From positions 1 through 45,268 of the IMG/VR virus record IMGVR_UViG_3300046522_000744: a DNA stretch of 45,268 nt. The stretch is one strand, 5' to 3'. Positions 389 through 45,268 of the stretch are shown one piece after another. Each line of letters begins with the position of its first letter. The stretch's first letter is position 1. Source of the stretch: a virus. Position numbers and translations under genes: made by a program. The notes beneath the pieces were generated by a model. The model saw only the letters and a program-made list of their open reading frames with translations, had not been told where the DNA came from and ran no database searches.

Positions 389-450
389 ATATGCCGACTT
401 CGTGTTTGAGGTATATGCCGACTCTCTGCGGCTCAAAAGTGATGTTCGGC
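389..450 (+). other. Left boundary of the cassette array (attI-like site or end of a divergent attC)
   Basis: GTTCGGC at 444-450, followed by GAC, is identical to the R' end of attC sites further right (for example 896-902). The GTG start of the first array gene follows 18 nt later, as in the other cassettes. The sequence before it does not resemble the 130-bp attC family: the usual GAGCTTGGGG is absent. An 11-bp direct repeat, ATATGCCGACT, occurs at 389-399 and 413-423. In attI sites of known integrons, direct repeats next to the simple core bind the integrase, so this may be attI. I infer this; no integrase gene is visible to confirm it. Confidence 0.45.
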
Positions 451-467
451 GACTGAGCACATCTCCC

Positions 468-734
468 GTGAAAGCCCTCGTTAAGACTACTTCTCTTACC
501 GCGTTTCTCGCACTGATCGCCTATTCCCGGATCGCGTATGTGCAGCACTTCAAGGTTCACTCCAAGGAGGGTGCTCTCGGAGAGGCACTCGACCCGATCA
601 ACGGACTAGCACTGCTCTCGTTTTTCGGATTTGGCACTCTCACGGTCATCTTGCTTTGCGCCTGCCTCATCTGCGCGGTCATTCATTTTTGGCACCGACA
701 CCAACTGGCGACGCACTCAACTGCTCGGAACTGA
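468..734 (+). CDS. Cassette 1: small two-TM membrane protein, unknown function
   Basis: 88 aa from a GTG start 18 nt after the cassette junction. The reading frame is open further left, but the GTG is preferred because the first cassette base is at about 445 and because cassette 6 starts in the same way (VKPLAKRLLFYG versus VKALVKTTSLTA). Residues about 7-22 and 47-72 are hydrophobic and predicted to span the membrane. The C-terminus (HFWHRHQLATH) is His-rich. The stop falls 38 nt before attC1. No family recognised. No clear Shine-Dalgarno sequence is seen, which is common in cassettes expressed from an external promoter. Confidence 0.6.
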   Translation: MKALVKTTSLTAFLALIAYSRIAYVQHFKVHSKEGALGEALDPINGLALLSFFGFGTLTVILLCACLICAVIHFWHRHQLATHSTARN

Positions 735-772
735 TTTATGTTCTGTGTCACATCACTCCTGAACCCAACGTC

Positions 773-902
773 GCCGAACCATGCGCTGCAGCGAACTGCT
801 CCGGTCGGTCACAGCCGCTGCTCCCACCACCTTCGCCCCCAGCCGCCTTTCCGCAGCGGCTGCGCCCGCCCTCCGCAGTCGCTGAGCTTGGGGTCGTTCG
901 GC
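773..902 (+). other. attC site 1 (integron recombination site)
   Basis: 130 bp from R'' GCCGAAC (773-779) to R' GTTCGGC (896-902), which are exact reverse complements; the match extends to GTCGCCGAAC/GTTCGGCGAC. The L boxes are GCGCTGCAGCGA and TCGCTGAGC, pairing with one unpaired base, as expected for a bottom-strand attC fold. The inner arm CAGCCGCTGC pairs perfectly with GCAGCGGCTG. Strand exchange is expected between G and T of GTT (896/897). Confidence 0.85.
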
Positions 903-923
903 GACTAGCCACACGTCATCGGA

Positions 924-1334
924 ATGCCATTCAAGCAACGCCTCCTAATCTTCGCCTCGCTCTGGCTGCTCGCCGGTGTCGTATTCGCCATCTTCTCGGA
1001 GGGTAGCGTCGAGGCTGGCGACAGTGAGTTCCTAGCTCGGCTCCAACTCATCTATCTCGCACCTCTTATCTCTGCGATCGGCACCGCATTTACCCTCGCC
1101 CACCGCGAAGGCAGCGGGACTGTCGATGCCGCTTGGCAGCAGCGTGAGCATTATGAGGCGGTCGTTCGCTGGGCATTGGTCGCGGTATTCGTCATTCATG
1201 CCGCTATCGCACTCACACGGCAGACGAGGCGACAGTTCATCATCCTCTCGACCATTCAGGTTGTCTTTCTCGCACTCATCATTCCCTGCGTGCTCTACTT
1301 CTTTCACTACGAAGAGACTCACGGACATGGCTGA
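924..1334 (+). CDS. Cassette 2: four-TM membrane protein, paralogue of cassette 7
   Basis: 136 aa. Four hydrophobic segments: about residues 5-26, 43-60, 80-98 and 106-125. A polar loop in the middle contains AWQQREHYEAVV, and the tail ends in HYEETHGHG. The protein aligns end to end with the cassette 7 product (3996-4403): RLL..SLWLL, GDSEFL.RL, WQQREHYE, TRRQFIIL and HYE.THGHG are shared. The start ATG lies 22 nt after R' of attC1. Function unknown. Two diverged copies within one array suggest cassette duplication, or independent capture of relatives. Confidence 0.7.
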   Translation: MPFKQRLLIFASLWLLAGVVFAIFSEGSVEAGDSEFLARLQLIYLAPLISAIGTAFTLAHREGSGTVDAAWQQREHYEAVVRWALVAVFVIHAAIALTRQTRRQFIILSTIQVVFLALIIPCVLYFFHYEETHGHG

Positions 1335-1352
1335 TACTCCAATCGAACCGTC

Positions 1353-1479
1353 GCCGAACCAAGCGCTGCAGCGAACAGGCTCCGCGGTCACGGCACCTGC
1401 GGCAGACCACCGCCGTCGTTCCGCCCGCCGGCAGGTGCCGCGCCCGCTCCGCCTGTCGCTGAGCTTGGGGTCGTTCGGC
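1353..1479 (+). other. attC site 2
   Basis: 127 bp, R'' GCCGAAC (1353-1359) to R' GTTCGGC (1473-1479). The inner stem is CGGCACCTGC pairing with GCAGGTGCCG, a different stem sequence from attC1 but equally complementary. The conserved 3' flank GAGCTTGGGGTC precedes R'. It follows the cassette 2 stop codon by 18 nt. Confidence 0.85.
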
Positions 1480-1496
1480 GACTTAGCCGTTCACCC

Positions 1497-1967
1497 ATGA
1501 ACGCTCGCTTTATCGTCCTGTGCAGCGTGCTTCTCTTCACTCGGCCGTTTCTTCACGCTCAGGACGGTAGCGTTAAGTCTTTCCAGGCTCGCGAGGGTAT
1601 TCTCATCACCAGCAGTGCCACGCCCCGTGTCTTCGTCTTTCGCTGCGGAGACGCCGAGGAGCGTATTGAGCATGATCCTAGCCGCCACCTGCGAGCGTCG
1701 GGAGCCGAACTGAACTTCGATGTCATTCCCGGCCTAACACATCTTTCCGCCATCCTCACACCAAACGGACCTGACTTGCGCCCCGAGGACAAGAAGCTTG
1801 CCGAGGAACAACTCCCCAAGGAGGGCAGAGACAAGCTCCACGTCTTCAAAGGCGCTGACGGACGGCTCTTCTACCTTCCGCACGACGGACAGACGCCGGT
1901 GATTCGAGTCGATCTCGTGCTCAGCAACGACCGCAAAGTGACTCTTTGGAGCCGGAAGCAACAATGA
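1497..1967 (+). CDS. Cassette 3: exported protein of unknown function
   Basis: 156 aa with an N-terminal Sec signal peptide: MNARF, a hydrophobic core over about residues 5-19, then FLHAQ-DG, giving a plausible AxA-like cleavage near residue 21. The mature part is mixed alpha/beta with one Cys (FRCGDAEE) and a Lys/Glu-rich stretch around residues 100-115. It ends with VTLWSRKQQ 10 nt before attC3. Probably periplasmic or secreted. No family recognised. Confidence 0.65.
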   Translation: MNARFIVLCSVLLFTRPFLHAQDGSVKSFQAREGILITSSATPRVFVFRCGDAEERIEHDPSRHLRASGAELNFDVIPGLTHLSAILTPNGPDLRPEDKKLAEEQLPKEGRDKLHVFKGADGRLFYLPHDGQTPVIRVDLVLSNDRKVTLWSRKQQ

Positions 1968-1977
1968 CATCAACGTC

Positions 1978-2107
1978 GCCGAACCATGCGCTGCAGCGAA
2001 CTGCTCCGGGCGTCACAGCCTGTGCTCCCGCCCGCAGACCCGCCCCCGCCGCCTTTCCGCACAGGCTGCGCCGCCCTCCGCAGTCGCTGAGCTTGGGGTC
2101 GTTAGGC
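1978..2107 (+). other. attC site 3
   Basis: 130 bp, R'' GCCGAAC (1978-1984) to R' GTTAGGC (2101-2107). The outer pair is slightly mismatched (G opposite A), probably because R'' and R' came from different recombination partners. The inner stem CAGCCTGTGC pairs with GCACAGGCTG. L boxes are as in attC1. Confidence 0.85.
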
Positions 2108-2136
2108 GTCGCTACGCGCATCCTGTAACGAACGAT

Positions 2137-2502
2137 ATGGAAGAACCGAATTCGATGCCCTCTTTCTGGCATGGCATTGCTGAGGGTGGCCCGCTGGTCA
2201 TGGCTCTTTGCCTGTCCATGGTCATAAGCTTTTGCCTCGCGCTCGTGTTCTCATTCCGTCGTCCAGGCAGTGTCGCTGCTTTTGCGTGTTCAGGTGCTCC
2301 ATTCGTGTTCGGTGCTGCTGCGTTGTGGCTCGGCGTCGTTGGCGTTTTAGCCGTCATTTCCGGCGTTATGTATGAAGGCGGCACGGTCGAGAGGCTGCGA
2401 CTTGTGCAGCGTCCATTCTTCCTCGGCACTGGTCTTTCCTGCGTGGCGTTTATCGTCTATTCCTTTGCTCGTGCGCTCAACTCCAAGACCCGCAACGCCT
2501 AA
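2137..2502 (+). CDS. Cassette 4: multi-pass membrane protein, unknown function
   Basis: 121 aa with four hydrophobic stretches (about residues 19-39, 45-66, 67-77 and 95-112). The stop codon TAA (2500-2502) lies inside the R'' box GCCTAAC of attC4, so the cassette is maximally compact. An alternative in-frame ATG is seven codons in (MPSFWHGIAEGG). No family recognised; acts in the membrane if expressed. Confidence 0.6.
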   Translation: MEEPNSMPSFWHGIAEGGPLVMALCLSMVISFCLALVFSFRRPGSVAAFACSGAPFVFGAAALWLGVVGVLAVISGVMYEGGTVERLRLVQRPFFLGTGLSCVAFIVYSFARALNSKTRNA

Positions 2503-2626
2503 CCATGCGCTGCAGCGAACTGCTCCGGGCGTCACAGCCTGTGCTCCCACCCGCAGACCCGCCCCCGCCGCCTTTCCGCACAGGCTGCGCCGCCCTCCGC
2601 CGTCGCTGAGCTTGGGGTCGTTAGGC
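2497..2626 (+). other. attC site 4
   Basis: 130 bp, R'' GCCTAAC (2497-2503) to R' GTTAGGC (2620-2626), exact reverse complements. Inner stem CAGCCTGTGC/GCACAGGCTG, nearly the same sequence as attC3 and attC6. It provides the stop codon of the cassette 4 gene. Confidence 0.87.
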
Positions 2627-2651
2627 GACTTGCCACGCTGATTCTGCATTC

Positions 2652-3254
2652 ATGAGTAATCAAACGCCCGTCTTCTTTCCGCCTCCTCCGAAAGGTCCGC
2701 ATTGGACGGCGATCTTTGTTCCCATCCTAACCTTTGCATTGGGCTGCGGCTCGACGTGGGGCCTCCAATTCTACCAGCGACGCACACACGTTCAGGATGA
2801 ACTTCACAGCCAGCAGACTCGCGCCGCTGCCGAAACGGAGCAACAGACGCGAACGCGAGTTCGAGCGTCCGCCACAGAAGTCTGCCGACTTTGCAAAGAG
2901 TGGTATACACAGGTCGAGAAGATTTTGATCTACCAACGCTCTGGAACGCCGCCGCCCCTGAGCGATCCGGGCGTATGCGACTACGTGAACAACAGAATCA
3001 TTCTTCCCGACCTACTCTTCCACACAAGTTATTTGGCATCTCAACCAACCGCCAAGGCTTTCTCGCAGCAGGCGGACAAGTTCTTGTCGCTGTTGACTGA
3101 CTTCAAGCCCGACGACCGAACAAAAATTAGCAAATGCGAAGAGCTACTCCTTGGCATCACACAGAATAATAGCACTACCAAGAATATCGAAGCACTACGA
3201 GTGCAGTTGGATGGCCTCCTTCAAAACCTGAACCACGAGGCCGCAAAACTTTGA
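2652..3254 (+). CDS. Cassette 5: membrane-anchored protein with a long soluble domain
   Basis: 200 aa. A short Pro-rich N-terminus (FFPPPPKGP) is followed by one membrane segment (about residues 19-39), then a charged Gln/Glu/Arg region (residues 44-75) likely to form a helix or coiled coil, then a helical C-terminal domain. Cys residues occur at about 80 and 83 (CRLC) and 107. The ATG is 26 nt after R' of attC4. Function unknown; the topology suggests a single-pass membrane protein with a cytoplasmic helical domain. Confidence 0.65.
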   Translation: MSNQTPVFFPPPPKGPHWTAIFVPILTFALGCGSTWGLQFYQRRTHVQDELHSQQTRAAAETEQQTRTRVRASATEVCRLCKEWYTQVEKILIYQRSGTPPPLSDPGVCDYVNNRIILPDLLFHTSYLASQPTAKAFSQQADKFLSLLTDFKPDDRTKISKCEELLLGITQNNSTTKNIEALRVQLDGLLQNLNHEAAKL

Positions 3255-3307
3255 TTGTCGCTTTCGTCATCTATACTTGCTGTGTCCTCAGAACCAAATC
3301 CAACGTC

Positions 3308-3431
3308 GCCTAACCATGCGCTGCAGCGAACCGCTCCGTGCGTCACGGCACCTGCTTCCGCCGCCACCTTTCCCCCCACCATGCAGGTGCCGCGCCGCTC
3401 CGGCGTGTCGCTGAGCTTGCGGTCGTTCGGC
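3308..3431 (+). other. attC site 5
   Basis: 124 bp, R'' GCCTAAC (3308-3314) to R' GTTCGGC (3425-3431). The inner stem GGCACCTGC pairs with GCAGGTGCC, with a different loop (TTCCGCCGCC...) from attC2. The 3' flank reads GAGCTTGCGGTC, one base off the usual GAGCTTGGGGTC. Confidence 0.83.
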
Positions 3432-3445
3432 GATGCTCGCGTCCC

Positions 3446-3838
3446 GTGAAACCGCTCGCTAAAAGACTCTTGTTTTATGGAGCCCTTCTCTTTCTTCCGG
3501 GCATCTGGATTGGCAGCGAGGTTCTTTACGCCGTCCGCATTCGACCGGCTGGCATTCACACCGCGGCAGACCACTTTCGCCGTTTTGGCGAACCGCGATT
3601 CGTGTATGAGGTCGTCCGTGACGGCAGCACATATTACGAGTTCACAGGCTTATCTCCTGCGGCTCCACCATTGCTCGCCATGCCTTCTTCGGCACCAGCC
3701 TATATCTACGACCAGAAAGGCAGTTTCACAGATTGGTGCTCGGACCCCGGAGATCGGCCAGCTTATCGGCAGGCTTGGCCGAGGGTTTCCGACACGCGCC
3801 TCGACATTCAGACTGTGAGGCAACGCATTTCCCAATGA
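3446..3838 (+). CDS. Cassette 6: membrane-anchored protein of unknown function
   Basis: 130 aa from a GTG start 14 nt after R' of attC5. The frame is open further left, but that part is attC DNA. Residues 7-28 form one membrane segment or uncleaved signal (LLFYGALLFLPGIWIGSEVL). The rest is soluble, with EPRFVYEVVRDGSTYYEF suggesting a beta-sheet domain on the outer face. Stop TGA is 7 nt before attC6. The start resembles that of cassette 1 (VK.L.K..L). No family recognised. Confidence 0.55.
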   Translation: MKPLAKRLLFYGALLFLPGIWIGSEVLYAVRIRPAGIHTAADHFRRFGEPRFVYEVVRDGSTYYEFTGLSPAAPPLLAMPSSAPAYIYDQKGSFTDWCSDPGDRPAYRQAWPRVSDTRLDIQTVRQRISQ

Positions 3839-3845
3839 CCGCAAC

Positions 3846-3975
3846 GCCGAACCATGCGCTGCAGCGAACTGCTCCGGGCGTCACAGCCTGTGCTCCCACC
3901 CGCAGACCCGCCCCAGCCAGCTTACCGCACAGGCTGCGCCGCCCTCCGCAGTCGCTGAGCTTGGGGTCGTTCGGC
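3846..3975 (+). other. attC site 6
   Basis: 130 bp, R'' GCCGAAC (3846-3852) to R' GTTCGGC (3969-3975), exact reverse complements. Inner stem CAGCCTGTGC/GCACAGGCTG as in attC3 and attC4. L boxes GCGCTGCAGCGA and TCGCTGAGC present. Confidence 0.86.
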
Positions 3976-3995
3976 GACTAGCCGCACGTCCTCAA

Positions 3996-4403
3996 ATGCG
4001 ATTCCCGGAACGCCTCCTAGTTTATAGCTCGTTGTGGTTGCTCACCGGTCTGGTGTTCTCCCTTTTCGCAGAGCTTTCATTCGAGTTGGGGGACAGCGAG
4101 TTCCTCGGGCGACTTTCGCTCGTCTATCTCGCGCTCCTTATTTCTGCGATGGGCACAGCATTCACTTTGGTTCATCCACGCTTCGGCGCGGCCAACGTCG
4201 ATTGGCAGCAGCGCGAGCACTACGAGGGAGTTGTCTTCTGGCTTTTGCTCGCAGCCTTTGTCGTTCACGCGATTATCGCCCTCACACGGAAGACTCGGCG
4301 ACAGTTCATCATTCTCTCGGTCATCCAGCTTGTTGTCCTCGCATCCACCGTTCCTTGCGTCCTATACTTCTACCACTATGAAGCCACCCACGGACACGGC
4401 TGA
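3996..4403 (+). CDS. Cassette 7: four-TM membrane protein, paralogue of cassette 2
   Basis: 135 aa with four membrane segments at about residues 7-27, 42-59, 80-97 and 107-125. It is co-linear with the cassette 2 product (924-1334), with the same WQQREHYE loop and HGHG C-terminus but many conservative changes. The DNA between stop and attC is also related (CCAATCGAACCGTCGCCGAACC in both, in two blocks). Function unknown. Confidence 0.7.
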   Translation: MRFPERLLVYSSLWLLTGLVFSLFAELSFELGDSEFLGRLSLVYLALLISAMGTAFTLVHPRFGAANVDWQQREHYEGVVFWLLLAAFVVHAIIALTRKTRRQFIILSVIQLVVLASTVPCVLYFYHYEATHGHG

Positions 4404-4421
4404 TTCTCCAATCGAACCGTC

Positions 4422-4548
4422 GCCGAACCATGCGCTGCAGCGAACAGGCTCCGCGGTCACGGCACCTGCGGCAGACCACCGCCATCTTTCCACCCACCGG
4501 CAGGTGCCGCGCCCGCTCCGCCTGTCGCTGAGCTTGGGGTCGTTAGGC
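4422..4548 (+). other. attC site 7
   Basis: 127 bp, R'' GCCGAAC (4422-4428) to R' GTTAGGC (4542-4548). The inner stem is CGGCACCTGC/GCAGGTGCCG, nearly the same as attC2, consistent with cassettes 2 and 7 sharing an origin. Confidence 0.85.
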
Positions 4549-4555
4549 CACTGCC

Positions 4556-5491
4556 ATGCTCATTAGTTCTCTCGCCACCACAGAGGAGCAGGCACGCGCC
4601 CGCATGAATTGGATTCAGTGGAGCGCGCTGGCGACCCGAATGAAGCGTAAGGCGGCGATTTCCGAACTCGTTTTGCTTCCTCGCTTTCAAAACTACAAGA
4701 AGTCGAAGGTCTGTGATGATGTCACCCTAAAGCAATACCTCAGCAACGGATGGACAACAGAGGCATTACTCGTCCAAAACTACACATTCTTTAGCGGTGA
4801 CGCACTCAGGAACAGCTTAGTCTGGGCATTTCCTCAGGCATACTACTCCGTGTTTTCCGTGACACTCGCCTACTTCCAGATGTCCGGCTTTAGCGATGGC
4901 CAGACGCACGCGTCACTCATCCGAAAATTTGGCGACGAAGCCGATTTGGCACATTACCCGTGCTTAGTTTCATTCATCGCTTGCGGCGGCATCGAACACA
5001 AGCGCACCTTCAAGAACTGCAAGAAGACGCCCCTGCCTTCGCCCCTTCATTTCGACGATACTGATTCCGACGTGGTAGATACTCATATCGCCAGCCTTTT
5101 GAGCACTACACGTCAGTCCGACCTTCGGGACCGCCTGATAGACCGCAAACACAAAACCAAGTCAGGGAAGCCAAAGAAGAAATTCACTGAGGCCGAATAC
5201 GCGAGTGTCGGCAAGAACCTCGGACACACGTCGATTCTTAGCTTTCTGTATCGCAAGCGCATCAAGAGCAATTACCAAGATATTGATAGCATTCTTTCAT
5301 CTGAGCTGAAGGCAGAAGACATATTTCTGCGAGTGCTGCGTGTTGTTGATTGCATGCATGTTATCCACGAGGCATACATCGCTCGGGCGATTGGCGGCAA
5401 AGCCTACGAAGCCTTGCTCGATTCGCTCCCAACCGGGGTCACACACTTACCGAAGAAGCGCTTTGAGCACATCAAACCTACCGTGCCCTAA
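4556..5491 (+). CDS. Cassette 8: 311-aa soluble protein of unknown function
   Basis: The largest cassette gene, 311 aa, with no membrane segment. It is helical, basic and aromatic-rich. Notable stretches are YYSVFSVTLAYFQMSG (about residues 99-114), a basic hinge KHKTKSGKPKKKFTEAEY (about 200-217) and HTSILSFLYRKR. The ATG is 8 nt after R' of attC7; a second ATG (MNWIQW) lies 16 codons in. The stop TAA sits inside the R'' box of attC8. I do not recognise a family. The size and helical character would fit a HEPN-like or other effector fold, but no catalytic motif is visible, so I assign none. Confidence 0.7.
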   Translation: MLISSLATTEEQARARMNWIQWSALATRMKRKAAISELVLLPRFQNYKKSKVCDDVTLKQYLSNGWTTEALLVQNYTFFSGDALRNSLVWAFPQAYYSVFSVTLAYFQMSGFSDGQTHASLIRKFGDEADLAHYPCLVSFIACGGIEHKRTFKNCKKTPLPSPLHFDDTDSDVVDTHIASLLSTTRQSDLRDRLIDRKHKTKSGKPKKKFTEAEYASVGKNLGHTSILSFLYRKRIKSNYQDIDSILSSELKAEDIFLRVLRVVDCMHVIHEAYIARAIGGKAYEALLDSLPTGVTHLPKKRFEHIKPTVP

Positions 5492-5609
5492 CCATACGCT
5501 GCAGCGAACCGCTCCGCACGTCACGGCGGCTGCTTCCGCCACCGCCTTGCCGCCTACCATGCAGCCGCCGCGCCGCGCTCCGCGGTCGCTGAGCTTGGGG
5601 TCGTTAGCC
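5486..5609 (+). other. attC site 8
   Basis: 124 bp, R'' CCCTAAC (5486-5492) to R' GTTAGCC (5603-5609). The inner stem CGGCGGCTGC pairs with GCAGCCGCCG. The R boxes depart from the GCC(T/G)AAC/GTT(A/C)GGC seen elsewhere, but the L boxes (ACGCTGCAGCGA, TCGCTGAGC) and flank are conserved. Confidence 0.8.
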
Positions 5610-5626
5610 GTTGTTCGCGCACTCCG

Positions 5627-6127
5627 ATGAACGAAGAATTCTACAAAGAAGTCGGAACCAACTACCGCTTCTTTCTTGGTTGGCGCCACGCCACATTTGC
5701 AGGCAATCTCATCGTGCTCGGCGGAGCGCTCTCGCTGTGCATTTCTGCATACAAGGATGCTCGTGAACTGGTGTGGCTTATTCCGTTGTGTGCTTCTCCA
5801 GTCGGCGTGCTCTTCTGGATCATCGACGTCAGGAACCGGAATCTGTATCACGCCGCCATCCAAGCCGGTAAGACTCTTGAGGACGGCCAGAGAGGCTTTT
5901 ACACGCGCCTTGCGGACGACGTTATCCTGCCGCCCGGTCGGTCTCCATTCCGCAAGCTCACTCAGAGCGCCGCACTCAATATCGCTTTCCTTGGGTCGTC
6001 CCTTTTGCTCGTTGTCGTGTCCTTCGTTCTCGCACGAGTTACAGCGAGCACGACGACTCCAGCAGCGCAGTCAACCTCGGCGATGACTGCGCCGGCAACT
6101 CCCACTCCCGCACCTAAATCCAAATGA
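5627..6127 (+). CDS. Cassette 9: membrane protein with cytoplasmic loop, unknown function
   Basis: 166 aa. Two membrane segments near residues 24-40 and 46-65 form a hairpin. A polar loop follows (DVRNRNLYHAAIQAGKTLE..), then a third segment at about 118-138, then a low-complexity Ala/Thr/Pro tail. The loop after the helical hairpin is reminiscent of small SLATT- or RipA-type membrane proteins, but I cannot show homology. ATG is 17 nt after R' of attC8; stop TGA is 8 nt before the broken attC9. Confidence 0.65.
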   Translation: MNEEFYKEVGTNYRFFLGWRHATFAGNLIVLGGALSLCISAYKDARELVWLIPLCASPVGVLFWIIDVRNRNLYHAAIQAGKTLEDGQRGFYTRLADDVILPPGRSPFRKLTQSAALNIAFLGSSLLLVVVSFVLARVTASTTTPAAQSTSAMTAPATPTPAPKSK

Positions 6128-6680: not shown

Positions 6681-8636
6681 TTACGGCGTGCCCTGTTGGG
6701 TCGTGGTGATGGTGAAGACACCGCTATTATTCGTGGTGGCGTTAGTCCGGCTGCCGTCGGCATCGTCGGTCACGCGCATCACGCCTTCGCCGATGTCCAG
6801 CGCAGTGACCGCCGCGGCGCTACCGTTGATCGCGGTGACCAGCGCGTCGCGCAGATCATCGCCGACGACCGTCATGCTATCCACGTCGGCAACCAGCACG
6901 TTCGTCCCACCGACCGCCGGGGCTCCGGAGCCTCCATCGACGTTCCAGTAGAAGTTCCAGCGACCAGTGGCATCCCAGATCGACACATAGTCGCCATCGG
7001 CCAGGCTGGCGGCCGTCCAATCCGCGATCGTGGCAATCTCGGGCTCGCCCGCACCGCCACTCTGAATCCGCACCGCCCCGTTCGCGCCGCTGCCGAGATT
7101 ACCGTTCTGAAGCAAGGTCGCGCCGGCGTTTTCGATATCGAAGTCGCTCGCGCTGTCTTCACCGAGAAAGACGGAACCGACCACGCGGACCGTGCCACTA
7201 TCTCCGAGTTTCAGCGGCGCACGCGCGCTGCCACTCGGATCGAAAGTGACTCCCGAGAAGGTGACATCGATGCCGCCGGAAATATTCCAGATCTCGGTGC
7301 CTTCCTCCTGCTCGTCGGTGTAGCCGCGGATGCGACCCTGATTCCAAAACACTTTCCCCTGTGGATAAGTGAGATAGAACATCGCCAGCGGGTTTTCTTT
7401 CCCAGCCAGGTCCCACTCCAGGACGTTCAGATACACCTCGGCCAGGTCGGTCCCTTCGTAGGCACGCACGGAAAGCGGCGAACCATCGGAGCCGCCCTCT
7501 TCAAAGCCATCGAGCGCCTCGACCTTCTGCCCGGTGATGTAAACCTTGGTGACGGTGTTTTGCGGGGCGATGGCAAACCCCCCGAAAGTTTTCTGGAAGG
7601 TGAAATAAGTTTTGCCGCCGTGGCAAACGTTGGCCTTGCGATCGCCCTTGATGACGAGCGACTCGACCCACATGACCGCGCTGGCGACGTGGCTGGTGTG
7701 ATAGACCGGCTCCGAATGGCCGGCATGCAGCAGATCGCCCCGGAAATAGAAATCGCCGGTCGGCGTGGAGTTTACTTCGCCCCAGAGATTGTAGTCGTCG
7801 CCGTAAGACTTCGGGCAATGGATGAAGCCCTCACCATTGAGCCAGGCCCACGTCCATCCGCGGCACATCGACCTCGCCTCCTTTTTCAGGAACAGCCACA
7901 TGTGGCCGTTCTCCTGGATGGCGGCCGAGACCGTCGGACCACCGGTCGTGTTATTGTCCGTGGTCGTGTAGATCGAATCGAGTTCGACCACGACCGCAGA
8001 GCTGGAGTTGCGCACCGCGATCGCGCCACACCGGCTGTCGAATTTGTTCGGAGCCGAGGTGTCGTGGAAACTCAGCGTGCCGGCGCCGGAAACTCGATAG
8101 CTCATCGCCGCCGTGGCCACGGGCGGGCTGGCGGTGTTGCCGTCGTCGAAGATGCCCTGGCTGTTGAGCGTGTTACTCCGCGCGATCGTCGAACCTTCGC
8201 AGAGGTACCAATTCACGCCGTTGCGGGCGAGCGAGGTTGTGACGTTGTAGAGCCCCGGTGCGCGAACAAAGGCCAGTCCCCCACCGCCGGCCAGCTTCAA
8301 GGCTTCCGCCGCGGTGGCCGGGCTCGCGAAAGCGCGATTCGGATCTCCGATGACCCCAGCCGCGATGCCGTTGGTTCCGTCGATGAAAGCCGTCTTGGTG
8401 GCATTTCCGATGACGACTCCGCCGACCGAGATGGTGCCGGCCGCGGCGTTCAGCGAAGCGCCAGGGGCGAGCTCAAGCGTCTGTCCGCTCGGAACGGTGA
8501 AACCTTTGCTGATCGTGCTCCCGCTCGGATCGAGGGTGAGCGGGATGCGGCTCTGCGCGAAGGCCCCTGCGGGCGCCAGCGCGAGGAGCAACGCGAGGAC
8601 GAGTTTGAAAACGGTAGTCGGCATTGTGTGATTCAT
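6681..8636 (-). CDS. Large tail-associated protein with an N-terminal signal peptide
   Basis: 651 aa. ATG at 8636 follows the stop of the previous gene by 2 nt. Residues about 5-28 form a classical Sec signal (MPTTVFKLVLALLLALAPAGAFAQS) with an AFA-Q cleavage site; for brevity the motif core is LVLALLLALAPAG. The mature part is Gly/Ser/Thr-rich and beta-rich, with repeats such as GVTFDPSGS, VVGSVFLGEDSAS and LLQNGNLGSGANG typical of right-handed beta-helix tail-spike domains (about residues 60-520). The C-terminal 120 residues include FNFYWNVD-like and TAINGSAAA.. segments. Likely a tail spike or a phage-encoded exported surface protein. A Sec signal is unusual for a virion protein. Confidence 0.65.
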   Translation of the reverse strand: MNHTMPTTVFKLVLALLLALAPAGAFAQSRIPLTLDPSGSTISKGFTVPSGQTLELAPGASLNAAAGTISVGGVVIGNATKTAFIDGTNGIAAGVIGDPNRAFASPATAAEALKLAGGGGLAFVRAPGLYNVTTSLARNGVNWYLCEGSTIARSNTLNSQGIFDDGNTASPPVATAAMSYRVSGAGTLSFHDTSAPNKFDSRCGAIAVRNSSSAVVVELDSIYTTTDNNTTGGPTVSAAIQENGHMWLFLKKEARSMCRGWTWAWLNGEGFIHCPKSYGDDYNLWGEVNSTPTGDFYFRGDLLHAGHSEPVYHTSHVASAVMWVESLVIKGDRKANVCHGGKTYFTFQKTFGGFAIAPQNTVTKVYITGQKVEALDGFEEGGSDGSPLSVRAYEGTDLAEVYLNVLEWDLAGKENPLAMFYLTYPQGKVFWNQGRIRGYTDEQEEGTEIWNISGGIDVTFSGVTFDPSGSARAPLKLGDSGTVRVVGSVFLGEDSASDFDIENAGATLLQNGNLGSGANGAVRIQSGGAGEPEIATIADWTAASLADGDYVSIWDATGRWNFYWNVDGGSGAPAVGGTNVLVADVDSMTVVGDDLRDALVTAINGSAAAVTALDIGEGVMRVTDDADGSRTNATTNNSGVFTITTTQQGTP

Positions 8637-8638
8637 GG

Positions 8639-10381
8639 TCAGGCGACGAAGCCGGTGCGGCCCGCGACCCAGGCGGTGCCGTTGAAAGTGAAGTCTCCGC
8701 ACCACTTGGCGGCCGCGACCTGGCTGAGCGCGCTGGCGAGCAGCGTGCCACCGCTGGTGGCGTTGTGGATCTCGAGAGTGCGGTTCACGCCGCTGGAAAT
8801 TGCCGCCGTGACGAAAACTTTGTCGCCGGTGGTTCGTCCGGAAGTAGGCAACGCCACGGTGGCCGTGAAAGTGCCGCTGCCGTTGAGCGTCACGTCCGCC
8901 GTGTGGCTCATGCTGGTGGGCACGAGCGCCGTGTTGCCGGCAGAGCTGATCGCCGTCGCGGCTTCGTAGCTGCTGCTTCCACTGCCACCACCCGCACCGA
9001 CGCTCTGCAGTTTCCAGACGACCGCGTTGGTCGACGCATGATAATCGTCCGGCCGGATCACGTTCGGCGAAGATTCCGCGTCCGTTCCTGCCTCGAGGCG
9101 GAAAAACTTCAGCTCCCCGCCGGAGTGTTTGAAGACATGCAGGCCGAGTGCGCGGCCGACGGTAACGACAGAATCGAGGTCGCTTGAAGTGCCACCTGTG
9201 TAACCGGTCGTCGCGCTGAGATAACGCACGATCTGGCCGGGCGTCGGATAGTTCGGACTGAGCGTGGAGAGCAGCGCATCGAGGTCGATGATGTCCTTGC
9301 TGACGGTGACCTGTGTTTGCAGCACGGTCGCCGGATCTTCATCGGGAAAGGTGATCTGCAGCTCGAGCCTGGGAGAGAGCGTATCGCTGCCGGATTCGAG
9401 AAAGGCCCGGTAAAGCCCATCGCCATTGAGCCGCAATGTGCCCGTGACCGTCTTCGGCGCGAGCATGTCGATATCCACCGCCGTCATCTGCGTGATGTTC
9501 GTATCGGCGAGACCGCCAATGAACTCGACCTGGTAAGCGAGGCTCGCCGAACCGGTGACGGAAACTTTTCCGGAGCCGATGCTCGGATGCGCTTCGATGA
9601 TCGTCTGCAACTCCGCTGCCGTCGCTGTGACAGGGACGACAAACGTGCGAGAGACCGGGCTGCCTCCAATAACGACGGTGAGAGAGTAGGTGCCGGCATA
9701 AGTGCCGGCCGCGAGTGTAATGGTTTGGACTTCGTTATTCCCTGTGCCCCCGGCCTGCACCGTGGCCACGGTAACGCTTGGACCCGGACCCGATGTCCAG
9801 GAGTCGATCAGCGCGTAGGGGTTTTGCTTCAGTTCGACGATCCAGACTTCATTCGTGGTGGAGTCACCCGCGATCAGTTGAGCGAGCCGGATGTAGCTGG
9901 AGGGTTGCAGCCCGTTGGCGACCTGCGTGAAATTATCCTTCGCCCCGACGGTCGAGAAAGTGATGCGGAAGAAGTTCGCTTCCTTCGTGACCGTGGCGAT
10001 GCCGCCATCGCTGGTGATCGCCGCGTTGGCGTTGAGTGCGGTCTTCAGCTCATCTGCCGTGATGTCCCAATCGAGCGCGGCGAGGCCCGTGCTCGATCCA
10101 TCGTAAGCGATGCCAAAGGTACCAGCCACAGGCGCCAGGTCCGCTTGGCCGATTGCCAGGCGAATGCCGCCGGCGGCGCGGGCGTCCTCGAGATCGATGT
10201 CGTCCCAAAGCCGTGCCCCGCTGGCATTCGGCTGCACACAGCGCAGCGTGACCGGCATGCCGTCGTTGCGGATCAGCGTCGAGATCGAGCCGCGTCCGGA
10301 CGAAGAAAAAAGCGAGAGCAGGCCCTGCCGATCGGGCGCAGAAACATCGACGAGGAGATTGAGAGTCGAGAGCGCGGACAC
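8639..10381 (-). CDS. Phage tail structural protein (distal tail or fibre), 580 aa
   Basis: 580 aa, beta-rich, Ser/Thr/Gly-rich, no Cys except one near position 48 and one near the end. Two related repeats appear, DWDITADELKTALNANAAITS (in parts) and VTATAAELQTIIEAHPSIGS, each followed by a beta hairpin. These are typical of phage proteins built of repeated alpha/beta insertion domains. The C-terminal 150 residues (SYEAATAISSAGNTAL.., TLNGSGTFTATVALP) resemble a fibre tip. It lies between the Cys-rich proteins and the signal-peptide tail protein. Role inferred from position. Confidence 0.6.
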   Translation of the reverse strand: MSALSTLNLLVDVSAPDRQGLLSLFSSSGRGSISTLIRNDGMPVTLRCVQPNASGARLWDDIDLEDARAAGGIRLAIGQADLAPVAGTFGIAYDGSSTGLAALDWDITADELKTALNANAAITSDGGIATVTKEANFFRITFSTVGAKDNFTQVANGLQPSSYIRLAQLIAGDSTTNEVWIVELKQNPYALIDSWTSGPGPSVTVATVQAGGTGNNEVQTITLAAGTYAGTYSLTVVIGGSPVSRTFVVPVTATAAELQTIIEAHPSIGSGKVSVTGSASLAYQVEFIGGLADTNITQMTAVDIDMLAPKTVTGTLRLNGDGLYRAFLESGSDTLSPRLELQITFPDEDPATVLQTQVTVSKDIIDLDALLSTLSPNYPTPGQIVRYLSATTGYTGGTSSDLDSVVTVGRALGLHVFKHSGGELKFFRLEAGTDAESSPNVIRPDDYHASTNAVVWKLQSVGAGGGSGSSSYEAATAISSAGNTALVPTSMSHTADVTLNGSGTFTATVALPTSGRTTGDKVFVTAAISSGVNRTLEIHNATSGGTLLASALSQVAAAKWCGDFTFNGTAWVAGRTGFVA

Positions 10382-35617: not shown

Positions 35618-36367
35618 TCAGAACGGCAGGTTTATCGTGATCTTCTGCACGCCGGCGTAATCGCGTTTGCGCGTTCCGCTGTGGCCACCGAAGCGAAAGA
35701 TGTCGCCCCACTTCCGCTGCAGCAGCGCGACATCGCGCTTCTCGGTGGCACCGGTTCGGAAGGCTGCTTGCCCTCCCCTGCCGGTGAACGTCTCGCGCTG
35801 GCAGAACGTGTAGCGGCAATCCTTCACGCAGAACCGGTGCTTGTGTGCGTTGGCGGCGGCGATATCGAAATCGTTCTTCGCGACGATGCGTTCGTCGAAG
35901 CGCAGGCCGTGGCCGCGCATGAAGCCCATCGCGCAGCCGTTGATGTAGCCGGTGAGCATGAACGGCTTCAGGCCCGTGTAGTAGCGCAGCGCGCCGTTGC
36001 TGGCTTCCCAGCCGAAGTAGAACGCACCCATGTCACGAGCCAGGCGCGCGGTGTTCGTGATGATCGCCTCGATGAGTTCGGGATCCCGAATCGTGGCCGG
36101 CTCGCCCTTCTCAACGAAGCAGCGCTGCACATTGAGGATATCGTCGTCGATGAAAACGAGAGCGTCGGCGTTGGAGGAACTGAGCAGCAAGTTCAGCTTG
36201 GGCGTGAGACCTTTCACCTTGTCGTCGTGCGCGACGAGCCGATCACTTCCGACGACTTTGGCGTATTCTTCCCACTGACTTTGAGGCACACACACGAGGG
36301 CGTTTGGAAGCAGTTTGTGCGTGGTCATCGTCGCCGCCCTGGACATCGAGGGAATGACGATTGTCAC
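35618..36367 (-). CDS. TAGT-like GT-A glycosyltransferase (phage DNA modification candidate)
   Basis: 249 aa from GTG at 36367 (VTIVIPSMSRAATMTTHKLLPNALVCVP). The start VTIVIPSMSR and a DDD-type motif in VFIDDDI (about residues 71-78), followed by an ASNGALRYY..LKPFMLTGYINGCAMGFMRGH segment, match the GT-A glycosyltransferase family known from TET/JBP-associated (TAGT) phage enzymes. The ParB-like gene sits upstream. Such enzymes glycosylate modified bases in phage DNA; here the acceptor modification gene is not seen. Confidence 0.6.
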   Translation of the reverse strand: MTIVIPSMSRAATMTTHKLLPNALVCVPQSQWEEYAKVVGSDRLVAHDDKVKGLTPKLNLLLSSSNADALVFIDDDILNVQRCFVEKGEPATIRDPELIEAIITNTARLARDMGAFYFGWEASNGALRYYTGLKPFMLTGYINGCAMGFMRGHGLRFDERIVAKNDFDIAAANAHKHRFCVKDCRYTFCQRETFTGRGGQAAFRTGATEKRDVALLQRKWGDIFRFGGHSGTRKRDYAGVQKITINLPF

Positions 36368-37070
36368 GGAGAGACTTGAGCGCTCGATCGAGAGCGATCG
36401 CGCGTCCCAGACCAACGCCGGTTTTTTTGTACGAGCGTTCCGGGACGATCCCGAGGAGGTTTTGGAGGAAGGCATATTCGGTAGCGTTGGTGGTGAAAAT
36501 GAGGACGTAATCGTAGCTCTCGCCGAGCTTGGCGGTGATGGGGAACTCGGCTTCCGGGATGTGCGATTCAGCGAGTAGTCGCTCAAATTCCTCCGGGGTC
36601 ACGGCCGCGAACTGCAAGTCGCCGGCGTCGAGTTCGCCGAGCAACTGGTTGAGCGCGTCCTTGTCGGTCTGCGCGAGTTTGGCGAGCTGGTTGTCGGCCG
36701 CCACGTCGCGCAGCTCCTCGGCACGCGAAGCGTAGTGCTGATTCTCGATCGGCACCGACCAGCCGCGGCGCCGCGCCATCTGAACCAGACCGTTGCCCTT
36801 CGTGATGCAACCGGAGAGCGTGGACCGCACGGCACAGCGACGGAAGCCGTTGCCAGTGATGACGGTCTCGTAGCGATCGAGCTGCGCGGCCGGATGGACC
36901 TGCGGATTCTTCGAGCCTGGCTGCTCGCTCCACAGCTTCAGATCTGCGGCCGGAACGATTTCGTCGAAGAGGCAGAAGACCGGGATGTCCCCGGCGTGGC
37001 CACGGGGTTTCGGCGCGCGCTTCGAGCCGCGCGGTTTGCGCGTTTCGTGGGAAGTTCGTTTTTTGGTCAT
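36243..37070 (-). CDS. ParB-like domain protein
   Basis: 275 aa from ATG at 37070 (MTKKRTSHETRKPRG). The N-terminus is basic; the ParB-like domain runs from about residue 45: KNPQVHPAAQLDRYETVITGNGFRRCAV (key: H..AQLD), then RAEELRDVAADNQLAKLAQTDKDALNQLLGELD, matching the ADN.L pattern of ParB-type domains. Its last ~125 nt (36243-36367) overlap the glycosyltransferase gene in another frame, a long overlap. Likely partner of the glycosyltransferase. Function inferred. Confidence 0.65.
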   Translation of the reverse strand: MTKKRTSHETRKPRGSKRAPKPRGHAGDIPVFCLFDEIVPAADLKLWSEQPGSKNPQVHPAAQLDRYETVITGNGFRRCAVRSTLSGCITKGNGLVQMARRRGWSVPIENQHYASRAEELRDVAADNQLAKLAQTDKDALNQLLGELDAGDLQFAAVTPEEFERLLAESHIPEAEFPITAKLGESYDYVLIFTTNATEYAFLQNLLGIVPERSYKKTGVGLGRAIALDRALKSLRDNRHSLDVQGGDDDHAQTASKRPRVCASKSVGRIRQSRRK

Positions 37071-37164
37071 GCGTATAAAAGTGCTGGGAGTCGCCAAGAC
37101 TGCTCCCAAGGGGGGTGGGGGTAGGAGACTCCTTCCGAGGGGGGCCTCTCAGTTATGAGGATTC

Positions 37165-42179: not shown

Positions 42180-42320
42180 TCAGTCACGGAAAACTTGGAT
42201 CCCGAGCCAGACGAGGATCGAAAGTACCCCCAGCGCGGCGCCGACGCACAGCAACACGAGTCCGCAACCGCCGCCTTCGTCCTCCCGCTCTTCATCGTCG
42301 TTGGGCAGCAGCTCACTCAT
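42180..42320 (-). CDS. Tiny single-pass membrane protein (46 aa)
   Basis: 46 aa from ATG at 42320, overlapping the upstream gene's stop (ATGA). Acidic N-terminus MSELLPNDDEEREDEGGG, then a hydrophobic segment GLVLLCVGAALGVLSILVWLGIQVF. Type I membrane protein or small holin-like candidate, but holins usually cluster with lysis genes and none is seen. It lies near the early promoter. Confidence 0.5.
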   Translation of the reverse strand: MSELLPNDDEEREDEGGGCGLVLLCVGAALGVLSILVWLGIQVFRD

Positions 42321-42637
42321 GCGGCTTGGGATTGAAGCATTTCGACGACGCGATGCGCTTGCACTGCCTCACCTTTCAGCCGCGCGGTGATCTGCCTGCG
42401 AAAGTAGCGGGGGTTAGACGCCCCGAGCGCCGTCGATTTCGTGAGCCGCCATTTTTTGTGATTCGCGTTCAGCGTCTCAGGTTGGACTTTGAGCATCCGA
42501 GCCGCCTGCCGAGGAGTGAGTACATCGAGACGTTCGGCTAATTCACCGCGGAGGAGTTTGCCTCCTTCGGCGATGAGCGCCGCCGTCACTCTTTCGAGGA
42601 TCAGACTCCGTTCTTCAGGACTCAGGTCGAGATTCAT
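42317..42637 (-). CDS. Excisionase/MerR-like helix-turn-helix protein
   Basis: 106 aa, ATG at 42637. Residues about 40-80 (LTPRQAARMLKVQPETLNANHKKWRLT..NPRYFRRQI) follow the MerR/excisionase HTH pattern (L....A..L.V...TL....) with a wing-like tail. Second gene of the leftward early operon. Excisionase role is inferred from position near the switch; a transcription regulator is equally possible. Confidence 0.6.
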   Translation of the reverse strand: MNLDLSPEERSLILERVTAALIAEGGKLLRGELAERLDVLTPRQAARMLKVQPETLNANHKKWRLTKSTALGASNPRYFRRQITARLKGEAVQAHRVVEMLQSQAA

Positions 42638-42650
42638 CGGCTCGAACCGG

Positions 42651-42842
42651 TCACGCCGCTTTACGTTCTGGCTTCGCGAGGGGACTCTTGAAAATTTCCT
42701 CGATCACCGGTAGCCCGCGCTCCAGCGCTTTGCGCATTGTGGTTGAGTCCGGTAGCCCAATCGCCTTCGCCACGCGCTTAATTTCGGAATCGAGCGTGCC
42801 GTCGATGCGAAGCGGTTTCACGATGTCTTTGGTCTTGGCCAT
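42651..42842 (-). CDS. Ribbon-helix-helix regulator (leftward)
   Basis: 63 aa, ATG at 42842. KPLRIDGTLDSEIKRVAKAIGLPDSTTMRKALERGLPVIEE fits a ribbon-helix-helix (Arc/CopG-type) fold: one beta strand, then two helices around the G..DST turn. The same motif, G..DST..R..L..GL..IE, occurs in the divergent regulator at 42920, showing the two are paralogues. First gene of the leftward early operon. Confidence 0.7.
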   Translation of the reverse strand: MAKTKDIVKPLRIDGTLDSEIKRVAKAIGLPDSTTMRKALERGLPVIEEIFKSPLAKPERKAA

Positions 42843-42849
42843 GCGCCGA

Positions 42850-42877
42850 TAAGTATAGATGTTCTATACCCAGTCAA
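42850..42877 (-). promoter_or_regulatory. Candidate leftward early promoter
   Basis: On the leftward strand TTGACT (42872-42877) is spaced 16 bp from TACTTA (42850-42855), with a 14-bp alternative TATACT at 42852-42857. The gapped operator (42853-42869) fills the space and overlaps the -10. Repression there would shut the leftward operon. Confidence 0.5.
42853..42869. promoter_or_regulatory. Operator-like inverted repeat at the lysogeny switch
   Basis: GTATAG ATGTT CTATAC, a perfect 6-bp inverted repeat with a 5-nt spacer. A further CTATAC half-site (42907-42912) in the same phase has a weaker partner GTGTAA (42896-42901), giving a second possible operator. Two facing RHH regulators flank the 77-nt intergenic region. 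Confidence 0.65.
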
Positions 42878-42885
42878 CAAAATTC

Positions 42886-42913
42886 TTGCCCTGCCGTGTA
42901 ATATCTCTATACC
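42886..42913 (+). promoter_or_regulatory. Candidate rightward promoter of the regulator operon
   Basis: TTGCCC (42886-42891) with a 16-bp spacer to TATACC (42908-42913), which overlaps the second operator half-site CTATAC (42907-42912). Drives the RHH-GYF gene pair at 42920. The A/T-rich -10 on a GC-rich background is the main support. Confidence 0.4.
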
Positions 42914-42919
42914 CGCGCC

Positions 42920-43249
42920 ATGCCCAAGAAGCGGAAGCCTCCCATGACGAAAGTCGTCCCGGTAAAAATGAGCGACTCCCTTTACGAACGCCTACAAACG
43001 GTAGCTGAGCTAGTCGGCGAGGCCGACAGCACAATCATCCGCCTTGTACTTCGTGCAGGCCTGGCGCAGATCGAAAAGGACAAGTATCAAGTTTTCAAAT
43101 TTGATCAGGATTTCAGCGAGGCCGGCGAGACGCGTGGTGCGGATGTGGACGACCTCTCTACAGACTCAACTCGCAACCTTCCCCCTCCGCTAGCACACCG
43201 AAGCCGAGCCCCAAGAAGCGACAAAAAATCCGCCAGTCCCAAATCATGA
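42920..43249 (+). CDS. Ribbon-helix-helix regulator (rightward), likely lysogeny repressor
   Basis: 109 aa, ATG at 42920 (another ATG eight codons in, MTKVVPVKM). The first 50 residues (TKVVPVKMSDSLYERLQTVAELVGEADSTIIRLVLRAGLAQIEK) make an RHH unit paralogous to the divergent gene. The tail is Ser/Arg/Pro-rich. Stop overlaps the next ATG (ATGA). In P22, Arc and Mnt are RHH regulators; this pair may work likewise as the repressor and its antagonist. Inference. Confidence 0.65.
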   Translation: MPKKRKPPMTKVVPVKMSDSLYERLQTVAELVGEADSTIIRLVLRAGLAQIEKDKYQVFKFDQDFSEAGETRGADVDDLSTDSTRNLPPPLAHRSRAPRSDKKSASPKS

Positions 43250-43944
43250 GCTACTTCGTTCATAGGAACGGCCAAACGATCGGCCCATATTCGCCCGACA
43301 ACATCGTCGTTATGCTCCGCGCACACCAGCTCGCGCTCGAGGACTTGGCTGTCGAGGAGGGCTGCGAAGACTGGCAGCCCCTAGGAGTGATCGTCGACCC
43401 GGCCGTCTTCGATCCACCCCCCCCTTCTAATAAGCCCGCGCATCCTCAGCCGGCTCGCCATTGTTCGCCCATCCCCGCATCGGCATTACGCGGCAGAACG
43501 CTTCCCACAAAGGCCGAAGTGACAGGTACGCGCACGGGCGCCTTTACGTGGGTGTTCGCTCTTTTTCTTAGCGTGATGCTAATCGGCTACATCGTGAATC
43601 TGGGGCAAGGTACTGATTTGATGGGTGTGGAGGAGCGCGCGCCGTGGAACGCGGGAAAGGGTTTCGTTTTGCAAGGCTTGAAGTCGCCAAGTTCTGCGAA
43701 GTTTCCGAGCGCCTACGATGGAAATGTGGGGTGGGATTCAATCGGTTCCGATCGCTGGGCGGTTTGGGGGTTCGTCGACTCGCAAAACAGCTTCGGAGCT
43801 ACCGTCCGAAATGAATGGCGCGCGGTCGTAGAACGCCGTGGCACAGACTGGCATCGTTTGTATCTTCGCTTGGGCGATCAGGAAGTTGGTGATCGATACC
43901 TATGGAGCAAAACGGACAGCTCGTCCTCGACCGCAGCGCGGTGA
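43246..43944 (+). CDS. GYF-like, membrane-anchored protein (lysogenic conversion candidate)
   Basis: 232 aa, ATG at 43246. N-terminal GYF_2-type domain (SYFVHRNGQTIGPYSPDNIVVMLRAHQL..EEGCEDWQPLG, residues 1-50), Pro-rich linker, one membrane segment at about 97-119 (FTWVFALFLSVMLIGYIVNL) and a C-terminal beta-rich domain with LKSPSSAKFP and WGFVDSQNSFGATVRNEWRAVVE. Expressed from the lysogen-side operon, so a role in superinfection exclusion is plausible. Function unproven. Confidence 0.65.
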   Translation: MSYFVHRNGQTIGPYSPDNIVVMLRAHQLALEDLAVEEGCEDWQPLGVIVDPAVFDPPPPSNKPAHPQPARHCSPIPASALRGRTLPTKAEVTGTRTGAFTWVFALFLSVMLIGYIVNLGQGTDLMGVEERAPWNAGKGFVLQGLKSPSSAKFPSAYDGNVGWDSIGSDRWAVWGFVDSQNSFGATVRNEWRAVVERRGTDWHRLYLRLGDQEVGDRYLWSKTDSSSSTAAR

Positions 43945-43951
43945 TCCGATT

Positions 43952-45268
43952 TTGAAGGCGCGAATTCCCGAGCAACTCATTGTCGGCACCCTTCGGTTCC
44001 GAGTCTATAAACTCGCGGACGATCGGTTAGCTTTCAGCTACAAACACGGCACAAAACGTGTCGTCGTGAAACGACGCGAACTTGATGATCTCCGGGCCGA
44101 GGCCGAACGCATAGCGACCGGTATTCTCAATGCCGAGACTGCTGCCATCGACGTCACCGCCGAAGATCGCCGCATATTCGTGGCCGCGCGCAACACACTT
44201 ATGCCGCTGGGTCTGCACGTAGATGCTGTCGCCCGTGACGTAGCCGCCGCGGCGCAGATCGCGCCAGGAGTATCGATCGCGGACCTTGCTCGAGCATACC
44301 AACGTCAGCGGCCGTCCGAGCGCGTCGGCGTGAAGGTTCACGCCCTCATCGTGGCGATCCAGGCGGAGAAAGATGAAGCTGACCTTTCTGGCCGCTGGAA
44401 GCGCGATGTGAAGAACGACCTCAAGTGGTTGGACGAAGCATTTGGCGAGCGGGATATCGCTGAGATCTCGTCGGACGAAATCTTAGATCGGCTGAGAGCA
44501 CTGCAGAAGGAAAGAGGCTTCGACTGGAAACGTCGAAATCACCTGCGGGACAAAGCCGTGCTGCTCTGGCTCTACGCCCAAGAACGGGAGATCCTGCCGC
44601 TCGATCGAAAGACGGCCGCGGAAATTGTCTCGCGCCTCCCGAAGCCACGACGCACCGCGAAGATTTCGACGTACAGTCCGACCGAAATGCTGGCGTGGAT
44701 CACAAACATTCGACCCAAATATCTCCCGTGGCTACTCGTTGGCGGGTTCAGCGGCGTACGCAGCGAGGAGATCGCGCCCGATCCTGAAAGCAATAAAGAC
44801 CCGCTTCGATGGGAAGATTTCAGATGGGAAAAGCGGTACATCTCGATTCGGCCTGAGACGGCAAAAGTCCGAGATCAACCCCGCCACGTTCCGATCTCCG
44901 ACAACCTGTTTGCCTGGCTGGAACCGTGGCATCACGCCACCGGCCTCGTGTGTGCCCCACCCCAGCCGAGCAGCAAAGAAACCGCGCGGCTCGGAAGGAT
45001 TACTGGCGCCGAGATAGATGGACGCTGGGTGCAGCTGAAGTGGAGGCCAAACGCTCTTCGACACACTTGCATCAGTGCGCTGCTCGGGTTGAGGGACGCC
45101 AATGGAGTGCAGATCAACAGCATCAGCCACGTCGCGGAAATCTGTGGCACCAGCGAGAAGAAAATCCGGACGAACTATTTGGAGCCGATGGATGCCGAAG
45201 AAGCAGCGGCGTGGTTCCAAATGATGCCGCCCCATCGCCCAGAAAACGTCCTCTCCCTGTTTGCTTAA
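43952..45268 (+). CDS. int: Tyrosine recombinase (phage integrase)
   Basis: 438 aa from TTG at 43952, preceded by GGTGA; the same frame is open further left (43838), overlapping the GYF-like gene by 107 nt. The C-terminal catalytic part has box-I Arg in GFSGVRSEEI, the Lys in ETAKVRD, a second Arg in PNALRHT and the Tyr in NYLEP. The usual His of HxLR is Asn (PNALR) and the second His/Trp is replaced near CGTSEKKIR. The typical verrucomicrobial style (..AEEAAAWFQMMP) is present. The window ends at its stop codon, so the right att site is outside. Confidence 0.85.
   Translation: MKARIPEQLIVGTLRFRVYKLADDRLAFSYKHGTKRVVVKRRELDDLRAEAERIATGILNAETAAIDVTAEDRRIFVAARNTLMPLGLHVDAVARDVAAAAQIAPGVSIADLARAYQRQRPSERVGVKVHALIVAIQAEKDEADLSGRWKRDVKNDLKWLDEAFGERDIAEISSDEILDRLRALQKERGFDWKRRNHLRDKAVLLWLYAQEREILPLDRKTAAEIVSRLPKPRRTAKISTYSPTEMLAWITNIRPKYLPWLLVGGFSGVRSEEIAPDPESNKDPLRWEDFRWEKRYISIRPETAKVRDQPRHVPISDNLFAWLEPWHHATGLVCAPPQPSSKETARLGRITGAEIDGRWVQLKWRPNALRHTCISALLGLRDANGVQINSISHVAEICGTSEKKIRTNYLEPMDAEEAAAWFQMMPPHRPENVLSLFA

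Follow-up and report, generated by a model that had tools for sequence, protein, structure and literature searches.

Facing ribbon-helix-helix genes as the probable lysis–lysogeny switch of an uncultured tailed phage

The window analyzed here, an IMG/VR record of 45,268 bases taken whole, contains two facing genes for ribbon-helix-helix (RHH) proteins, leftward L and rightward R. We conclude that the region is probably the lysis–lysogeny switch of a temperate tailed phage, in which R would shut the lytic promoter and L would shut R. This reading starts from observed or computed features, namely gene order, RHH fold (from homology and models), operators, the recurrence of the promoter layout, and the matching of strand residues within pairs. 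The initial annotation had already suggested a switch of RHH/RHH rather than CI/Cro type. This is also our best reading, given the recurrence of the layout in related phages, the sharing of the slot with HTH_3 repressors, an Imm_superinfect gene in one relative and the lack of a CI-type family among the 48 window ORFs scanned.

The gene content of the window includes terminase, portal, head protease and tail genes, with an integrase at the terminus (Table 1). Gene R heads a rightward module, whose last gene is the integrase. The coordinates, strands and 77-bp gap (42843-42919) initially given for the divergent pair are all correct, and the motif described as common to both proteins (G..DST..R..L..GL..IE) fits exactly in L (GLPDSTTMRKALERGLPVIEE) and in R (GEADSTIIRLVLRAGLAQIEK). 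From the direction of transcription, R belongs to the lysogeny side and L is the first gene on the lytic side, and we propose R as the lysogeny repressor and L as its Cro-like partner. The GYF_2 gene is proposed to be a lysogenic or exclusion gene, and the second leftward gene possibly encodes an excisionase-type protein. A tRNA scan found none.

Table 1. Features of the divergent region and its neighbors (window coordinates)
Feature	Position	Strand	Description
Second leftward gene	42317..42637	-	106 aa; weak HTH (BldC-like) similarity, E 0.035, below cut-off
Gene L	42651..42842	-	63 aa RHH protein; heads leftward replication/packaging/structural gene set
Leftward -10 candidates	42850..42857	-	TACTTA (16-nt spacer) or TATACT (14-nt spacer); ambiguous
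O_L (candidate operator)	42853..42869		perfect 7-3-7 palindrome GTATAGA-TGT-TCTATAC
Leftward -35 element	42872..42877	-	TTGACT (AGTCAA on + strand); from comparison of related regions
Rightward -35 element	42886..42891	+	TTGCCC; from TTGC spacing in related regions
O_R (candidate operator)	42896..42912		degenerate copy GTGTAAT-ATC-TCTATAC (GTGTAATATCTCTATAC), 3 mismatches; overlaps proposed R -10
Rightward -10 element	42908..42913	+	TATACC; 16-nt spacer; 6 nt ahead of R start codon
Gene R	42920..43249	+	109 aa; N-terminal RHH domain (~residues 9-56), then low-confidence tail
Gene between R and integrase	43246..43944	+	GYF_2 domain (E 3.6e-8), hydrophobic stretch
Tyrosine-recombinase integrase	43952..45268	+	phrog_1, E 4.7e-10

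Neither L nor R has an RHH Pfam match, and no window protein reached the curated Pfam or NCBIfam cut-off for RHH families. PHROG gave a weak match of L to a transcriptional-repressor phrog and weak Arc-like and CopG-like matches of R (E 0.02-0.35), and the best hint from the curated libraries was NCBIfam RelB-like (E 0.044-0.047, below cut-off). After addition of homologues, the R-family profile matched CopG-type chains (6iya, E 9e-4; CopG 1b01, E 0.0025), and the L-family profile matched SvtR (E 0.007) and also NikA, CopG, VapB and omega. The description of L and R as paralogues is borne out by comparison of the two family profiles (48 columns aligned, probability 96.8%, E 2e-10) and by a six-frame search of the record (E 6-8e-4, 36-38% identity), and not by direct BLASTP of L against R, which returned no match.

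In the AlphaFold models (core pLDDT ~78-92 for both proteins), an extended N-terminal segment is followed by helices 15-28 and 32-51 in L, and by helices 19-32 and 36-62 in R, which is the RHH architecture of an N-terminal strand and two helices in ~45 residues. No strand is assigned in the models, because a lone monomer was modelled. Fold comparison of the two cores (Foldseek, VIA) returned mostly RHH chains, including Rv0298 and AtaR, at low scores (Foldseek E 0.1 or worse; best Z ~4-6). Taken together, the profile and AlphaFold comparisons indicate that L and R are both RHH proteins.

The occurrence of this layout was examined in a set of related records. Relatives of the terminase led to 4 integrase-bearing records, a search with an integrase profile returned 23 loci, of which 19 were in records not yet in the set, and a terminase profile gave 5 further integrase-bearing records; a second integrase profile returned only already-known records. 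Removal of 8 records lacking upstream DNA (L038, L041, L045-L048, L051 and L052) from the resulting 28 records plus the window left 21 that could be assessed, with L092 counted as its own record despite being near-identical to L091. Of the 21, 11 (the window, L031, L032, L033, L034, L039, L040, L042, L044, L049 and L089) have the facing layout, with an RHH gene toward the integrase and a small L gene toward the lytic genes. The phages other than the window that share it differ greatly in sequence. Both partners are RHH-supported in 8 of these 11, by sub-threshold family matches or by similarity to such proteins, weakly so in L040. For L032, L033 and L089, whose rows rest on chosen start codons, the support covers R only, and an RHH domain was not demonstrable in the L genes tried; the reference for L of L089 in the Pfam scan starts one codon after its ATG.

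A lambda-type HTH_3 repressor occupies the R slot in 3 of the 21 records (L091, L092 and L056), next to the same integrase family. The HTH_3 genes of L091 (3344-3760) and L056 (4847-5227) pass the Pfam cut-off, and the L092 translation is the same as that of L091. One record (L054) has a lone RHH-like gene, judged by eye and without a Pfam match, and nothing was recognized in the slot in 6 (L043, L053, L055, L057, L090 and L093). The gene next to R varies among the phages, encoding a GYF_2, Imm_superinfect, zinc-ribbon or hydrophobic protein, or one of no family. In L042, R and the integrase are separated by a gene (5272-5727) for an Imm_superinfect superinfection-immunity protein (E 1.1e-12). 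We read R as a repressor because HTH_3 repressors share its slot and because this immunity gene adjoins R.

RHH profiles found no matches in 10 further terminase records. The L089 pair emerged only later, on reading of the ORFs, and the profiles therefore miss diverged pairs. Scans of viral contigs with single proteins (R, L, the integrase and a DnaJ-like protein) found no relatives, nor did two scans of genome contigs; a phage collection held no relatives of R or the integrase, and a plasmid collection none of the integrase. The integrase and zinc-ribbon proteins give an impression, and only that, of a verrucomicrobial host. In two of the related phages, the R side has a pair of adjacent RHH-like genes, at 8466-8879 and 8883-9074 in L034, and at 3888-4064 and 4061-4324 in L040. 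The L protein of L040 is nearer to the second of its R-side genes (43% vs 27% identity).

Two candidate operators lie in the gap (Table 1). The gapped inverted repeat initially reported as GTATAG-5-CTATAC is present and perfect, and had been understated, as the arms are 7 bp long and the gap 3 bp. What was called a second half-site (TCTATACCC, 42906-42914) is the good arm of the degenerate copy O_R. One operator had been placed over the leftward early promoter; O_L is located between the proposed L -35 element and the L start codon. TCTATAC occurs four times in 45 kb, three of them within the gap (0.39 expected; four reached in 0/100 shuffles), and a search for the 17-bp palindrome that tolerated at most 3 mismatches gave two matches in the record, both in the gap (0.07 expected). 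The palindrome alone is only mildly unlikely, since 38/2000 dinucleotide shuffles of the window gap give a perfect arm of at least 7. The three-fold repetition of TCTATAC in the gap is the stronger signal.

The candidate operator sequence varies from phage to phage. Perfect palindromes were found in L042 (ACCATATACAA-C-TTGTATATGGT, 2/2000 shuffles), L033 (TGTCAAAGA-AAA-TCTTTGACA, 5/2000), L034 (GAAGACTTA-T-TAAGTCTTC, 10/2000) and L032 (CGGTAAC-CAGTA-GTTACCG, 93/2000). Those of L031, L044, L039, L040 and L049 were not significant in the shuffle test, the value for L049 being meaningless as no arm of 5 was found there. A perfect palindrome matched by <5% of shuffles is thus present in only 5 of the 10 operator regions tested (L089 left out).

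Promoters had been proposed on both strands of the gap. Comparison of the related regions supports this for the -35 elements, while a strict sigma-70 scan returned no promoters and the leftward -10 is ambiguous. In 9 of the 11 related regions, all but L031 and L089, GTCAA (TTGAC when read leftward) is found at a distance of 31-37 nt from the L start. Shuffled sets reached at most 3 regions (2000 sets), and the best shared 5-mer of any kind in 300 shuffled sets reached 4 regions. In 5 of the 10 regions compared (L089 left out), the distance between GTCAA and the TTGC of the rightward -35 is exactly 13 nt. In the window, L042, L049, L039 and L031, where the rightward -35 is TTGAAT, a -10-like hexamer follows after 16 nt, and the R start after a further 6-7 nt. 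This short distance leads us to predict leaderless R transcripts; no Shine-Dalgarno-like sequence was seen ahead of R. By comparison, the L and R promoters are predicted to stand back to back, with their -35 elements close together. The divergent promoter core GTCAAC is also present in the HTH_3-type region of L091, consistent with an exchange of regulators in which the promoter frame was kept.

To compare the specificity of the paired proteins, the RHH core (41 residues) was aligned by hand, without gaps, for a small number of pairs. L and R of the same phage were more similar than re-paired proteins (mean score 28.3 vs 5.2, P 1/20000; 10 pairs, L089 left out). Asn11 of Arc is a base-contacting strand residue, and we take the alignment position with the largest within-pair excess, out of 41, to be its equivalent. 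Here, 7 of the 11 pairs have the same residue in both partners (1.9 expected, P 44/100000), as do 7 of 8 when only the better pairs are counted (P 0.00034), for a hypothesis formed after the residues had been seen. The residues in the 11 pairs are P/P, P/P, P/P, R/K, A/A, S/S, S/S, T/T, I/S, V/S and A/R. Strand positions 1, 3 and 5 showed no within-pair excess (5 vs 4.8 expected). Helix positions did show one (86 vs 58 expected), and common ancestry of each pair may therefore explain part of the matching. Because the strand residue matches within pairs even though the operators differ, the alignment suggests that L and R may recognize a common site, in the manner of CI and Cro.

These observations bear on an alternative arrangement, in which R is the sole repressor, and L is an RHH auxiliary (an excisionase-like protein or early-gene autoregulator) acting at other sites, so that the loop is not reciprocal. 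Such an arrangement would accommodate the L genes of L032, L033 and L089, which are not demonstrably RHH, and the leftward gene opposite the HTH_3 repressor of L091, which has no Pfam family. The matched strand residues, the similarity within pairs and the presence of a degenerate O_R over the R -10 argue against it, and we regard it as unlikely.

The reciprocal switch resembles lambda CI/Cro in its divergent repressor and anti-repressor genes, adjacent promoters and shared operators, here with the repressor on the integrase side. It differs in that L and R lack an S24 peptidase domain and, by Pfam, an HTH_3/XRE domain, which the same library detects in L091 and L056, and in that DNA would be read by a beta-sheet. 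RecA-stimulated self-cleavage is therefore not expected.

Mnt and Arc of phage P22 are both RHH proteins, encoded by divergent genes with overlapping operators. According to the P22 literature, they repress each other's expression (PMC11016777) and tune Ant (PMC11016777, PMC7549136, PMC2629481), while C2/Cro hold the primary switch (PMC11016777, PMC7549136). Our region resembles P22 immI in having a divergent pair of putative RHH repressor genes that flank candidate operators, and could by analogy be a secondary control locus, under an unrecognized primary repressor elsewhere in the phage. Many window ORFs are without a family assignment, and a novel repressor could have been missed because gene finding was heuristic. 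However, whereas immI controls the antirepressor Ant, no ant was found here among the adjacent genes or the 48 window ORFs scanned, in which 6 Pfam families were found, none of them an antirepressor, HTH_3, S24-peptidase or second-repressor family. Moreover, the pair is found where the integrase module meets the beginning of the lytic operon rather than in the late region, and CI-type repressors fill the same slot in related phages. A secondary role is accordingly improbable in our view. L and R show no close sequence similarity to Arc or Mnt.

Other RHH regulators differ from the pair in acting singly. F55 of SSV1 is likewise an RHH protein that regulates lysogeny, and it holds lysogeny at the early promoters and its own promoter in a CI-like manner (PMC9608457, PMC5569661). 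In these papers it is a single regulator acting on tandem direct repeats (ATAGATAG) at archaeal promoters, with no facing RHH partner described. Among solved structures, CopG, omega and SvtR are the closest by profile and rank among the closest by fold. They are single autoregulators (plasmid copy control, SIRV1), in contrast to the two facing paralogues found here. Searches of the open-access literature for phage lysogeny repressors of the RHH or CopG type (PMC9703825 and PMC8026635 included) turned up partition proteins of this fold, antitoxins and isolated mentions, and no description of a primary RHH/RHH switch in a tailed phage.

An antitoxin, partition or copy-number function (RelB/VapB/ParG/CopG type), with plain autoregulation, is very unlikely for either RHH protein or for both: the best curated hints are antitoxin-like (the RelB-like matches above, with Rv0298 and AtaR in the fold lists), phage-plasmids employ RHH partition proteins according to PMC8026635, and a ParB-like gene is present at 36243-37109, but no toxin or ParA/ParM family was found in 42317-42637, 43246-43944 or the integrase, the adjacent genes encoding GYF_2, the integrase or proteins with no match above cut-off, the variable R-neighbor gene belongs to a toxin family in none of the phages, and the divergent layout is unlike that of a toxin-antitoxin operon.

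For the reciprocal RHH switch, we propose the following mechanism. R, expressed with a membrane-type gene and the integrase, would act as the lysogeny repressor; as an RHH dimer, or pairs of dimers, it would bind the strong palindrome O_L and shut the leftward lytic promoter. It would also bind the weaker O_R over its own -10, limiting its own level. L, as the first gene of the lytic operon, would read the same half-site and shut the R promoter once lytic transcription wins. The simplest circuit would then consist of strong repression of L by R, weak repression of R by itself, and repression of R by L. In this scheme we infer DNA binding, mutual repression, the relative strength of the sites in vivo and the control of lysogeny. 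As there is no S24 domain, induction would need another route, which might be, for example, degradation of R via its low-confidence tail.

More tentatively, and with somewhat less than even confidence, we suggest a class of temperate phages in which the primary decision is made by two co-evolving RHH paralogues with matched DNA specificity and back-to-back promoters, possibly as mixed L-R dimers. Such a system would be the counterpart of CI/Cro, with beta-sheet DNA reading throughout. The half-site and one or two residues of the strand would for the most part define the immunity group, and the two regulators would be exchanged together with their operators as one cassette, for which HTH_3 repressors could substitute in the slot.

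The phage switches studied in bacteria mostly use helix-turn-helix repressors. A recurring RHH/RHH version, seen here in uncultured phages only, would, if true, mean that a circuit of mutual repressors does not depend on any one protein fold, and would supply naturally matched protein pairs and operators from which the RHH recognition code could be learned. How lysogens are induced when the repressor does not cleave itself would then become a question. The failure of both proteins to reach a curated cut-off would, moreover, account for the unannotated repressors of such genomes.

Several other genes of the window were observed. The rightward ORFs at the left end (309-5491) gave PHROG matches in 0 of 7 scanned. 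A glycosyltransferase ORF (35618-36586, minus strand) is similar to TAGT / beta-glucosyl-HMC-alpha-glucosyltransferase (Pfam E 1.8e-10, PHROG 4e-16), and is overlapped by the ParB-like ORF on the same strand; the two possibly form a DNA base-modification cassette. The DnaJ-like phage protein (39737-40516, minus strand; phrog_9210, E 1.7e-49) has relatives in phages of Synechococcus, Erythrobacter, Caulobacter, Microbacterium and haloarchaea.
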